Positions 1 to 3,975 of a stretch of DNA of 38,051 nt are shown in pieces. Both the position numbers and the translations under genes were made by a program. Under the pieces are notes generated by a model, which was not told where the DNA came from, searched no databases, and saw only the letters and a program-made list of their open reading frames with translations. Origin of the DNA: Flavobacteriales bacterium (lineage in GTDB: Bacteria; Bacteroidota; Bacteroidia; JACJYZ01); NCBI GenBank assembly GCA_020435415.1, contig JAGQZQ010000025.1:1-38051 (forward strand), written 5' to 3'. Numbering within the stretch: the first letter of the stretch is position 1; each line of letters begins with the position of its first letter.

Positions 1-22
1 CCTGCCCGTCCGGTCAGGCGGG
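1..22 (+). repeat. 22-nt GC-rich repeat, copy 1
   Basis: Identical to positions 373-394. It begins CCTGCCCG and ends CAGGCGGG, so its arms are imperfectly complementary: CCTG pairs with CAGG, or CCCG with CGGG. It sits at the T-loop position of a tRNA-like sequence in both copies. Confidence 0.8.
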
Positions 23-41
23 GAATCCCTCAGCTCCCACA
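1..41 (+). other. 3' part of a tRNA-like sequence (unit copy 1, cut by window edge)
   Basis: This is the left-edge counterpart of the tRNA-like sequence at 316-413. Positions 1-22 are the same 22-nt GC-rich insert found at 373-394. They are followed by GAAT (23-26, end of a T-loop), CCCTC (27-31, 3' strand of a T-stem), AGCTCCC (32-38, 3' strand of an acceptor stem) and ACA (39-41). The 5' half lies outside the window, so the fold cannot be tested. The T-stem strand CCCTC differs from CCTGT in the other copy, while the acceptor strand AGCTCCC is identical. The tRNA-like reading is inferred from the better-preserved copy. Confidence 0.45.
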
Positions 42-53
42 AAAACAACAGAG

Positions 54-89: not shown

Positions 90-353
90 ATGCCCTACTA
101 CTTCTATGTTCTTTACTCCCAAAAACTCGATCGTTACTACATCGGTCACACTTCTGATGTGGAAGGCCGCTTGCGTAGACATAATGGCCGGCATAAGGGT
201 TTTACAACCAAGGCCGATGATTGGAGAGAAGTTTACTGGGAATCATACCCTACCAAAGAAGAAGCTTACCGGCGCGAGCTGGAAGTCAAAAAATGGAAAA
301 GCCGAAGACGCGTTCAGGAGCTTATCTCAGCAGGTTCAGAGCATCCCGCCTAA
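90..353 (+). CDS. Small GIY-YIG nuclease superfamily protein
   Basis: An 87-aa single-domain GIY-YIG endonuclease of the UPF0213/YhbQ-like size class. The GIY-equivalent segment is FYVLYS at residues 5-10 and the YIG motif is YYIGHT at 16-21. The RLRRHN helix (27-32) supplies the usual catalytic arginine region, and a charged helix rich in E, K and R follows at 57-75. Family members cut DNA, often at repair or mobility junctions; the substrate here is unknown. The last ~12 codons and the TAA stop (351-353) lie inside a tRNA-like sequence (316-413), so the protein's C-terminus is encoded by that element. There is no clear ribosome binding site because a terminator T-run abuts the start. A decayed second copy begins at 463. 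Confidence 0.85.
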   Translation: MPYYFYVLYSQKLDRYYIGHTSDVEGRLRRHNGRHKGFTTKADDWREVYWESYPTKEEAYRRELEVKKWKSRRRVQELISAGSEHPA

Positions 354-413
354 GCGGGAGGGTCACAGGTTCCCTGCCCGTCCGGTCAGGCGGGGAATCC
401 TGTAGCTCCCACA
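316..413 (+). other. tRNA-like sequence interrupted in its T-loop
   Basis: Read as a tRNA: acceptor 5' strand 316-322 (AGGAGCT) pairs with 404-410 (AGCTCCC) at 6 of 7 positions. T323-A324 fill positions 8-9. A D-arm follows (CTC 326-328 with GAG 339-341, loop containing GGTT). The anticodon-like arm is TCCCG (344-348) with CGGGA (355-359), the variable loop is GGGTC, and the T-stem is ACAGG (365-369) with CCTGT (399-403). The T-loop would read TTCGAAT once a 22-nt insert (373-394) is removed, and ACA follows the acceptor. Faults against a working tRNA are the insert, a 6-nt instead of 7-nt anticodon loop, an A-C mismatch at the first acceptor pair and a broken first D-stem pair. The GIY-YIG stop codon lies in the anticodon-like loop. 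The fold is seen directly; that it derives from a tRNA gene is inference. Confidence 0.6.
373..394 (+). repeat. 22-nt GC-rich repeat, copy 2
   Basis: Identical to positions 1-22. It separates TTC (370-372) from GAAT (395-398), which would otherwise form a canonical seven-base T-loop between perfectly matching T-stem strands. That placement suggests an insertion into a tRNA-like sequence rather than chance. Confidence 0.8.
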
Positions 414-426
414 ATAAACAATAGAG

Positions 427-457
427 GGCTGATTCATTATTTGGATCAGCCTTTTTT
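427..457 (+). terminator. Intrinsic terminator (unit copy 2)
   Basis: GGCTGAT (427-433) pairs with ATCAGCC (445-451), then six T (452-457). It is a copy of the terminator at 54-84, 373 nt downstream, and again ends just before an ATG (463). Confidence 0.75.
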
Positions 458-462
458 ATTTT

Positions 463-528
463 ATGGCCTACTACTTTTACATCCTGTACTCCAAAAAGCT
501 GGACTGATGATATGTCGGTCACACATTT
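463..528 (+). pseudogene. Decayed, truncated GIY-YIG nuclease copy
   Basis: From ATG 463 the frame reads M A Y Y F Y I L Y S K K L D, closely matching the start of the intact gene at 90. It then has two consecutive TGA codons (505-510), where the intact gene has R and Y, and resumes in the same frame with Y V G H T, matching YIGHT. Similarity stops abruptly near 528, so only about the first 22 codons remain. The upstream repeat and terminator are conserved, so this is a dead second unit. Confidence 0.75.
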
Positions 529-768: not shown

Positions 769-3700
769 ATGAAATTGTTTTCCCGTCCTTATGTATGGGG
801 GCTTTGGGCTTTGCTTTGGTTATTGTCATGGCCCTCGTTCGCACAGACACGTTTGCCCCTTGCATCGCCCAACGATGTGTATGGCTACAATGATTGCGGA
901 GATAACCTCGGTTTCGAAGATGGCGACCTGTCTAACTGGGACGGATGCCATTATGATGGTAACAATGCCCCATGCTGTCCGGTGCAATGCGATATTGTGG
1001 GGCTGCAACCCGGCATCAATTCCGTCAACGGAGACCTGGGCGAGTGTAGCACCCGGAATCCGAATTTCAATAACATAAGACACACCCTGACAAACGGTAA
1101 CGGGATCGACCCGAACAGTGATAATATGATACCTGTTGTAGCGCCCGGGTGTGGTAATTACTCAGTACGCATTGGAAACCAGGAGGCGGGAAAGCAGGCG
1201 GAATGCATGTCACAAACGTTTACCGTGGTTCCTGAGAATGCGCTGTTTACCTACATGTATGCCGTGGTATTCCAGGATCCAACCGATCATACGGATGATG
1301 AACGCCCGCGCTTTAACATCAACATCTCGGCCAGCGGAGCACCCGTTCCCTGCGGCGGTGAGTATGTGGTGGTAAGTAAGGATGCCATCAACGAGGGATT
1401 TACCAAAGCCCTCAATCCTGCCTGCGGAGATACCAACGTGTGGTATAAACCGTGGACGCCGGTGGCTACCGATCTTACGGCATACATCGGACAACAGGTG
1501 ACCATCGAATTCTGTACGGCAGACTGTGGCCGTGGCGGTCACTGGGGGTATGCCTATGTGGATACCTATTGTTCTCCATTGGAGATCGATGGCGCCCACG
1601 TGTGCTCCTGGCAAGACAGCATTACCCTGGTGGCACCGCAGGGATTTACGAATTATGAATGGTATATGGGAACACTTCCGCTGACACCGCCCATTGTAAG
1701 TACGGATATTTCCGCGACTGTCCCGGTAGTGGACGGAGATGTATATACCGTACGGATGGAGAACGTTGCGTCCCCCGGTTGCTATACCTACATCACCGAC
1801 ACCATCGTCGTATTCGGAGGCGAGGCTTTCGGTGACACGATGGTATGCAAGGAGTTTGCAGGCCCTATCCAGCTCACCACCATATCCAACGACGGTGATG
1901 CGACCTACAACTGGACTCCCGCCACCGGCCTGAGTTGTACCACCTGCCCCAACCCGCAAGTCAATCCACCCTATAGCGACATCGTCTACACGGTCACTAT
2001 GACCAATGCGGTAGGATGTATCGCCACCGATAGTGTGGTCATCACCACCAAAGGATGTGATCCCACGGTGACTGCAACAGCGGATTCCCTTTGCAACGGT
2101 GGATGTGGTGAAGTGACAGCCGTCGGTTCGAAAGGACTTCCTCCCTACACCTATACCTGGTCACCGGATGTGGGAGGTATAGGTGAGGGACCACATACGG
2201 TGTGTCCGACCACCACGACCGTATACCATGTGACCATAACAGATGCCGATGGTTATACCGACAGCACCACGGCCACCTTTGTGGTTTACCCATTACCCAC
2301 TGTATCCATGCCGCCGGATGAAACGATCTGTGCCAATGAAATACCTACCATGGATCTGACCGCAACCGTCAACAGTGGTACCGCGCCGTTCTCCTATCTG
2401 TGGGATGATCCCAGTTCCGGCACCACGGCTACCATCACCATTAGCAATGTTCCCGATTCCTCCGTTACATATCATGTGACGGTGACGGATGTCAACGGAT
2501 GTTCTACGTCCGGTGAAGTCACCATCACTTCGATATGTTTACCTGAGATCACCATGGAACCGGATGAATATTGTGTGCCCGATTGTGCCATGCTTGACCC
2601 CAAAGCTTCAAAAGGAACGCCGCCTTACACGTACACCTGGGATGATCCCACACTGAATGGCCCCGGGCCTCATCAGGTGTGTCCTTCAGTCACGACAACC
2701 TACTGTGTGACGGTAACGGATGTGTACAACAAAAGCGCGAGTACCTGTGCCACCATTACCGTGCATGAATTACCGGTGCTTACCACTTCCACAACGGATG
2801 CTACATGTGGAGAATGCAATGGGAGTGTTGTGGTGAATGCATCCGGAAACGCGCCGTTTAACTATCTATGGAGTTCCGGATGTATTAATAGCTCATGTCA
2901 GGATTTATGCGCAGGGCCATATACTGTAACGGTTTCGGATGTCAATGACTGTGTGTCGGTCGTGTCGGATACCGTGATCGGACACACCAGACCCACGGTG
3001 GATATCATCTCCAGCACCGATCCGTTGTGCTTCGGAGATTGTACGGGTACGGCAACGGCAGTGGGTGACGAAGGCATTTCACCTTATACATTCACCTGGA
3101 ATGATCCCGGCCAGCAATCCGGAACCACCGCCACCGGTTTGTGTGCTGGTACGCATGAGGTATGTCTGCAGGATGATCAGGGCTGTCTGGTCTGTGATTC
3201 GGTGGTGATCAACCAACCACCTGCACTGGTGGTGTCCATGACAGCTAAAGATGAGATCTGCCATGACTCGACAGGAGCGGTTTATCAGACAAGCACGGGG
3301 GGCGTACCGCCTTATACCTTCGTGTGGAGTGATCAGAATTCATCCACCACTGCGACCATCACAATGTTGACAGAGGGTACGTATGAAGTTACTATCACCG
3401 ACAGCAATGGTTGTACCGCTACCGGTAGTGATCAGGTGATCAATAATCAGATTCTGCCATCGGCGGAGTTCGTTCCGGATCCGGTGGAAGTGTTGCTATT
3501 GAATCCGGTGATCAACTTCTTTGATAAATCAAGCGACGCGATCAGTTGGTATTGGGATTTCGGTGATGGCGCGGAGTCGGATCTGCAGAACCCCATCCAT
3601 CTTTTCACAGATACGGGATGTTATCAGGTACTCTTAAGGGTGGAGAACAAGTACGGTTGTACCGACAGTATTCCGCGGACGGTTTGCGTGAAGGATCTGA

Positions 3701-3975
3701 CCAGCATTTACGTCCCCAATGCTTTTACTCCTAATGGAGATGGAACGAATGAGTACTTTACCGTCGGCGAGTATAACTACTGCGAATTCGAGATGTTCAT
3801 TTATGATCGCTGGGGCAACATGATCTTCAAAACCACCAGCATGAAGGGCTGGGATGGTACGGCCAACAACGGCTCCGAGATCGCGCAACAGGATGTCTAC
3901 GTGTGGTTGATCAAGGCGGTTGATTGCTATGGTGAGGAATGGCAAAGGGTAGGGCGGGTGACGCTGGTGCGATAG
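769..3975 (+). CDS. Large T9SS type B cargo protein with Ig-like/SprB repeats and PKD domain
   Basis: A 1068-aa secreted surface protein. Residues 1-26 are a signal peptide ending FAQ. Residues ~27-275 resemble an N-terminal jelly-roll-like module (GFEDGDLSNW near the start) whose ligand is unknown. From ~277 there are Ig-like/SprB-type repeats, recognisable by PPYTYTW, APFSYLW and SPYTFTW followed by VTVTD-N-GC motifs. A PKD domain lies at ~917-978 (WYWDFGDG). Residues ~979-1068 match the gliding-motility-associated C-terminal domain (VPNAFTPNGDG, then YDRWGN, then GWDG), the type B T9SS sorting signal. Such proteins cross the outer membrane through T9SS, usually with a PorP/SprF partner, and act as adhesins or matrix proteins. 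Many cysteines occur in CxxxC-like pairs. The reading frame is intact, unlike its three minus-strand neighbours. Confidence 0.9.
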   Translation: MKLFSRPYVWGLWALLWLLSWPSFAQTRLPLASPNDVYGYNDCGDNLGFEDGDLSNWDGCHYDGNNAPCCPVQCDIVGLQPGINSVNGDLGECSTRNPNFNNIRHTLTNGNGIDPNSDNMIPVVAPGCGNYSVRIGNQEAGKQAECMSQTFTVVPENALFTYMYAVVFQDPTDHTDDERPRFNINISASGAPVPCGGEYVVVSKDAINEGFTKALNPACGDTNVWYKPWTPVATDLTAYIGQQVTIEFCTADCGRGGHWGYAYVDTYCSPLEIDGAHVCSWQDSITLVAPQGFTNYEWYMGTLPLTPPIVSTDISATVPVVDGDVYTVRMENVASPGCYTYITDTIVVFGGEAFGDTMVCKEFAGPIQLTTISNDGDATYNWTPATGLSCTTCPNPQVNPPYSDIVYTVTMTNAVGCIATDSVVITTKGCDPTVTATADSLCNGGCGEVTAVGSKGLPPYTYTWSPDVGGIGEGPHTVCPTTTTVYHVTITDADGYTDSTTATFVVYPLPTVSMPPDETICANEIPTMDLTATVNSGTAPFSYLWDDPSSGTTATITISNVPDSSVTYHVTVTDVNGCSTSGEVTITSICLPEITMEPDEYCVPDCAMLDPKASKGTPPYTYTWDDPTLNGPGPHQVCPSVTTTYCVTVTDVYNKSASTCATITVHELPVLTTSTTDATCGECNGSVVVNASGNAPFNYLWSSGCINSSCQDLCAGPYTVTVSDVNDCVSVVSDTVIGHTRPTVDIISSTDPLCFGDCTGTATAVGDEGISPYTFTWNDPGQQSGTTATGLCAGTHEVCLQDDQGCLVCDSVVINQPPALVVSMTAKDEICHDSTGAVYQTSTGGVPPYTFVWSDQNSSTTATITMLTEGTYEVTITDSNGCTATGSDQVINNQILPSAEFVPDPVEVLLLNPVINFFDKSSDAISWYWDFGDGAESDLQNPIHLFTDTGCYQVLLRVENKYGCTDSIPRTVCVKDLTSIYVPNAFTPNGDGTNEYFTVGEYNYCEFEMFIYDRWGNMIFKTTSMKGWDGTANNGSEIAQQDVYVWLIKAVDCYGEEWQRVGRVTLVR

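Follow-up and report, generated by a model that had tools for sequence, protein, structure and literature searches.

SegB, a free-standing homing endonuclease of the T-even phages, is a GIY-YIG enzyme that has been implicated, in phage T6, in cutting tRNA-containing DNA; tandem amplification of the tRNA-segB segment is also on record, and needs the active site of SegB (PMC13096335). Genomic islands housed in the 3' ends of tRNA genes offer a second precedent, in which the tRNA is rebuilt by the insertion and a displaced 3' copy forms a direct repeat, and REP sequences with their RAYT (Y1) nucleases a third, where short palindromes are tied to one small nuclease gene, with tandem and gene-less derivatives. 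In Rickettsia, palindromic elements are inserted in genes and RNA genes.

Here, we describe a DNA unit of ~340-370 bases, found across Bacteroidota and often in tandem, which carries one small nuclease gene and whose end is a tRNA-like fold at positions 316-413 of the window (the whole 38,051-nt stretch of Flavobacteriales DNA that was analysed). Parts of this element have known parallels, and in behaviour it would seem to be most like SegB: a GIY-YIG gene sits beside tRNA genes, tRNA homology is present at the end of the nuclease gene, and the tRNA-nuclease segment is amplified in tandem (PMC13096335). It departs from SegB in residing on bacterial chromosomes, in encoding a single-domain protein, and in combining many tRNA types with a true duplication of the tRNA 3' end and a conserved hairpin that takes the place of the anticodon arm. 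Unlike genomic islands, it is ~340 nt long, with one nuclease gene, no integrase and a new hairpin in the displaced copy; the unit (337 nt in genome G013, ~372 nt in the window) has room for the GIY-YIG gene only, and none for a tyrosine integrase. It differs from REP/RAYT systems in its GIY-YIG, as opposed to HUH Y1, chemistry and in being tied to tRNA genes, the GIY-YIG gene being the only one recognised in the unit, with no HUH Y1 transposase; the Rickettsia palindromes, in contrast, are tied neither to a nuclease gene nor to a tRNA duplication. Searches of the open-access literature turned up no account of bacterial GIY-YIG elements linked to tRNA genes.

The window array and its nuclease

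Self-comparison of the window reveals a tandem array at 1-528, with a period of ~372 nt. Positions 1-45 and 373-417 are 91% identical, and 43-151 and 416-524 are 84% identical, such that the window opens within the array, and the recurrence argues that the tRNA-like fold is not due to chance. The unit here reads, in order, terminator-like hairpin, GIY-YIG gene and partial copy of tRNA-Val(UAC) (Table 1); a hairpin and T-run at the position matching 54-84 are also present in the inspected filled loci of relatives. More generally, and counting from the end of an intact tRNA, the unit comprises a terminator hairpin, a GIY-YIG gene of 85-90 amino acids, some 10 nt of the tRNA's D-arm, a TCCCG...CGGGA hairpin where the anticodon arm would be, and the 3' half of the tRNA.

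Table 1. Features at the start of the window, with the basis for each
Feature	Positions	Strand	Basis
Tail (3' end) of the tRNA-Val copy before this unit, with the T-loop palindrome (1-22) followed by T-stem and acceptor 3' strand GAATCCCTCAGCTCCCACA (23-41)	1-45	+	91% identity to 373-417; exact 22-mer at 1-22
Terminator-like hairpin GGCTGAT...ATCAGCC with T run; left end of the unit, directly before the nuclease start codon	54-84	+	read from sequence; recurs at 427-457
GIY-YIG nuclease gene (87 aa), with its stop codon (351-353) inside the loop formed by hairpin 344-359	90-353	+	ORF; Pfam PF01541; AF2 model; nearest solved relatives
Partial, degenerate tRNA-Val(UAC) copy, overlapping the end of the nuclease gene	316-413	+	matches tRNA-Val of relatives; ARAGORN call only after excision of 373-394; like copies at homologous loci
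Hairpin TCCCGC-CTAA-GCGGGA, which replaces the anticodon arm and is the element's conserved hallmark	344-359	+	folding and covariation at homologous loci
Variable loop GGGTC (360-364), T-stem 5' strand ACAGG (365-369), first T-loop half TTC (370-372)	360-372	+	read from sequence
22-nt palindrome that interrupts the T-loop after TTC and before GAA, a secondary insert of REP-like kind	373-394	+	same site and type in the G102 array; two exact genome copies
Remaining T-loop GAAT (395-398), T-stem 3' strand CCTGT (399-403), acceptor 3' strand AGCTCCC (404-410), ACA (411-413)	395-413	+	read from sequence
Terminator-like hairpin of the next unit	427-457	+	repeat of 54-84
GIY-YIG pseudogene, truncated, belonging to the next unit and closing the array at its distal end	463-528	+	68% identity to the first 22 residues; two TGA

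The window's genome contains tRNA-Val(GAC), and a tRNA search of the assembly returned no tRNA-Val(UAC). Contig C23 terminates, facing outward, in a promoter-like TATATTTGC together with GGGAGCTTAGCTCAGCTGGTTCAGAGCATCCCGC..., which looks like the 5' half of tRNA-Val(UAC); the assembly gap between contigs C23 and C25 is the most likely place for the head of the array. Further along the window, 769-3975 encodes what is, judged by eye, a large, repetitive surface protein whose C-terminus looks like a sorting region of the Bacteroidota gliding/secretion type. A search of the window against Rfam gave nothing above threshold and no group I intron match. A weak match to the L20 leader (293-464; 25.8 bits against a cut-off of 58.7) was dismissed as chance, and plasmid matches to 300-470, which were short and at chance level, were likewise set aside.

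The encoded protein matches PF01541 over a complete GIY-YIG domain (63.3 bits, cut-off 22.6; E 2.7e-17), Y6, Y17, G19, R27 and E63 are invariant in the homologue alignment, and it is, judged by its sequence and fold, a member of the GIY-YIG nuclease superfamily. Its AF2 model (pLDDT 88) is disordered only over the last few residues, which are encoded by the tRNA-like part. By both sequence and fold, the nearest solved structures are those of UPF0213/YhbQ-type proteins, represented by BH0048, and of the nuclease domain of the branched-DNA nuclease SLX1 (sequence matches: 1zg2, UPF0213, E 3e-12; SLX1, 4e-5). NCBIfam returned no family for the protein, and no DNA-binding domain is evident beyond the catalytic fold. 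The kinship to UPF0213 and SLX1 suggests recognition of DNA shape, such as a cruciform or hairpin, which would fit tRNA genes as a class of target. We know of no linkage of either SLX1 or UPF0213 to tRNA genes or repeats.

The tRNA copy, its hairpin and the T-loop palindrome

Every part of the fold that a sequence-only reading had claimed for 316-413 is present: six of seven acceptor pairs (AGGAGCT with 404-410), the D-arm, a 5-nt variable loop, the T-stem and ACA. Its anticodon-like arm also exists, with the TAA stop of the reading frame (351-353) in its loop, but is built of a 6-bp stem and a 4-nt loop and is no tRNA anticodon arm. ARAGORN calls no tRNA in the window, nor in 301-430, as the sequence stands. 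Deletion of 373-394, proposed to restore the T-loop, does lead the program to call one tRNA, but of unknown type, with a two-base anticodon and a 6-nt loop; a complete cloverleaf with a 7-nt anticodon loop was found neither before nor after this excision. Of the 29 nt at the 5' end of the copy, 26 agree with genuine tRNA-Val(UAC) from relatives, and the copy is tRNA-Val(UAC)-like.

At homologous loci, the 3' half (variable loop to end) is 91-92% identical to the tRNA of its own locus versus 75-78% to those of other loci of the same type, and the match to its own tRNA is perfect in 37 of 56 copies; the Val copies alone include 22 different 3' halves. Identity on the 5' side is high over the ~8-12 nt nearest the hairpin and drops beyond them. 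The 5' strand of the acceptor is usually absent, and the mean number of acceptor pairs formed, out of seven, is 2.6 for Val and 1.9 for Arg (shuffled, 2.2 and 2.0). Since homologous copies lose their 5' side and acceptor pairing is near chance, the near-full-length 5' half of the window copy represents a minority state. A functional tRNA was rejected on the lack of an ARAGORN call, the 6-nt loop of the excised form and the loss of the acceptor stem in homologues; this loss, and the intact tRNA that lies upstream, also leave a functional, split tRNA-like RNA unsupported.

The conserved part of the element is the hairpin at 344-359, and not the palindrome. Among 71 arms that could be extracted, a hairpin with a stem of 5 bp or more stands in for the native anticodon arm in 68, and the native arm is kept in one. 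The outer stem, T[C/T]CCG...CGG[G/A]A, is nearly constant across different tRNA types, and positions 6-8 of the inner stem covary (111 of 118 paired, against a mean of 77.6 and a maximum of 89 in 2000 shuffles, which ignore relatedness). Because CATCCCGA... encodes His-Pro-Asp with a stop soon after, the stop codon of the nuclease gene falls within the hairpin loop at many loci, that of the window among them. This covariation, and the position of the copy on the mRNA strand and across the stop codon, would suit a role at the level of RNA, where the tRNA-like 3' end serves as a processing or stability signal of the nuclease mRNA, or as a decoy for a tRNA-cutting enzyme. We think such a role very unlikely: neither the acceptor stem nor the 5' half of the cloverleaf is conserved, a terminator-like hairpin stands between tRNA and gene in the inspected filled loci, and SLX1, the nearest relative of known activity, acts on DNA.

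The palindrome itself had been proposed as the cut or recognition site of the nuclease; on this version, the RNA would be a functional split tRNA. Across the whole genome the exact 22-mer is found only at 1-22 and 373-394, with one intergenic relative at three mismatches. The idea that its copies split a T-loop is right for both exact ones, and a similar split is seen in G102, an unrelated genome, but most homologous copies have no T-loop insert and an uninterrupted T-arm (31/31 match), while the anticodon-arm hairpin is near universal (68/71) and the native arm survives in 1/71. With two exact genome copies, and no T-loop insert at most loci, the 22-mer was rejected as a general recognition site, and we give the proposal as a whole next to no credence. 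T-loop palindromes recur independently in a minority of loci (G102, L025, L039, L045, L135 and others), and that of the window is a secondary, later REP-like insert. Locus L171 (genome G107) has, ~110 nt past the tRNA, a lone tRNA-Val 3' copy that bears a T-loop palindrome but lacks the nuclease gene, much like the footprint of a lost element.

A different division of roles is that of a REP-like system, in which the TCCCG...CGGGA hairpin would be the mobile entity and the GIY-YIG protein its dedicated nuclease (as RAYT is for REPs), with tRNA stems as hairpin-like targets. In most of the Bacteroidota genomes that were searched, TCCCGA...TCGGGA hairpins do outnumber the reversed control (at most 99 versus 1), the outer TCCCG/CGGGA stem is conserved over different tRNA types, and palindromes are found in T-loops too (the window, G102, L025, L045 and L135). 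The hairpin is, however, rare in the window's own genome (2 versus 1 in the control), and hairpin-rich genomes such as G029 contain no close relative of the nuclease, which leaves this account improbable to our minds. Genomes G007, G029 and G056 each contain 65-99 dispersed TCCCGA...TCGGGA hairpins versus 1-5 in the reversed control, forming a REP-like family.

Recurrence at tRNA genes

A homologue of the nuclease is present in 66 of 99 genomes of the same class. At 21 of the 29 best loci outside the window's genome, an intact tRNA lies on the same strand within 100 nt of the gene, with two more within 260 nt; the tRNA types found there are Val, Ala, Met, Arg, Pro, Asp, Thr, Ser and Leu. A separate scan covered 84,980 species genomes, with an alignment of closer relatives as query, and its best 80 loci were examined. 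An intact same-strand tRNA is found within 200 nt upstream at 58 of the 80 (37 Val, 18 Arg, the others single) and an antisense one at none, whilst simple arithmetic (~40 tRNAs in the 3.48 Mb of the window's genome) puts the chance of an upstream tRNA at ~0.1% per locus. At 56 of the 58, a partial copy of the same upstream tRNA lies downstream; the unit leaves its host tRNA intact. More distant GIY-YIG hits have an upstream tRNA within 300 nt in 18 of 40 cases (Asn, Met, Phe and Pro among the types), and about half of these 40 genes have no tRNA nearby, which counts against homing to tRNA genes.

Several other loci of the window's genome are of related interest. A further GIY-YIG gene (C123:1-900, L015) accompanies an intact tRNA-Leu(CAA) and several tRNA-Leu 3' copies split by CCTGCC...GGCAGG palindromes. 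Others are found at L013:1-530, L014:815-1340 and L017, the last with two in tandem; in L013 and L014 the gene comes after a long inverted repeat, CCACCCCTGAAG...CTTCAGGG, no tRNA is clearly present, and the two possibly represent a related element at another kind of site. At C15:8872-9075 (L081), a CAT-anticodon-side tRNA is apparently split by a ~230-nt insert resembling a group I intron, and a second tRNA 5'-half copy adjoins it.

At one tRNA-Val(UAC) locus of genus g14, filled alleles (G013 and G113) exist alongside empty ones (G108 and others). Copy and native terminator of the filled locus align to the empty tRNA and terminator (350-455 to 14-118) and the flanks continue, giving an insertion of 337 nt. 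Such alleles, like the intact upstream tRNA at 58/80 loci, are what a SegB-like homing element would show, although presence and absence within the genus could partly reflect loss. In Chryseobacterium, one Ser-Pro-Arg tRNA locus carries 1, 2 or 3 hairpin units at its tRNA-Arg, some of them gene-less and 123-126 nt long, and G102, of the same genus as the filled/empty pair, carries five identical tandem units of 170 nt at that same tRNA-Val locus, deletion derivatives with a truncated gene and a T-loop palindrome. The sequence-only reading is supported in so far as it proposed a small unit that joins a GIY-YIG gene to tRNA-derived sequence: the unit recurs at dozens of Bacteroidota loci, related species differ in whether they have it at a given tRNA, and tandem copies occur. 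From the empty sites and copy number, we infer that the unit is mobile.

These arrays may also be read as passive: a UPF0213-like host GIY-YIG gene, long linked to a tRNA, would be multiplied and left to decay by unequal crossing-over between tRNA copies, with hairpins that are unrelated REP insertions and a nuclease that drives nothing. The five identical, nuclease-dead units of G102 do suggest amplification in cis with no intact gene in the unit. Likewise, tRNA-type lineages are largely stable on the nuclease tree (18 changes versus 39 when shuffled), itself poorly resolved, and TCCCGA...TCGGGA is also scattered through genomes with no close relative of the nuclease, such as G029 with 65. 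Saying this, several switches of tRNA type, at least 2-3, are forced on the same tree, many different tRNAs are linked to the gene with the same hairpin at the same position, and the flanks of the filled/empty pair continue; on balance, we regard a passive origin as unlikely.

A proposed homing-type route and its implications

Synthesising these findings, we propose, as the probable explanation, that the unit is a minimal homing-type GIY-YIG element of tRNA genes, which spreads by cutting and by repair from a filled copy that rebuilds the tRNA, with arrays formed by repetition. In a tRNA gene that lacks the unit, the nuclease would cut in or close to the anticodon arm, recognising its target by structure and not by sequence, and the broken 5' half would then pair with a tRNA copy that carries the element. 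Repair might copy what remains of the tRNA, followed by terminator, gene and hairpin, before rejoining within the identical 3' half; the tRNA would thereby be rebuilt upstream, and the displaced 3' half left as the mark of the right end. Tandem arrays and deletion derivatives could stem from repeated rounds, or from recombination between 3' halves, and the 22-nt T-loop palindrome would arrive later, in the manner of a REP. The rebuilt tRNA retains the presumed target, which speaks against this model unless recognition extends into the flank. The lack of an evident DNA-binding domain and the assembly gap at the head of the window's own array count against it as well.

We also speculate, far more tentatively, that the unit belongs to an undescribed class of minimal self-spreading element of bacterial chromosomes, in which a structure-specific nuclease of 85-90 amino acids reads tRNA-gene DNA by its shape, inserts by repair, restores the tRNA, and marks the displaced copy with a hairpin that shields it from recutting; that hairpin may, in turn, be ancestral to the dispersed TCCCGA...TCGGGA palindromes of Bacteroidota.

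If homing at tRNA genes is the right explanation, a gene seen in many Bacteroidota as a generic GIY-YIG nuclease would be part of one of the smallest mobile elements known, and a chromosomal counterpart of phage SegB, with tRNA genes as its homes. It would also account for the tandem repeats of tRNA origin at which this assembly breaks, and might point to a possible source of the palindromic repeats of Bacteroidota.
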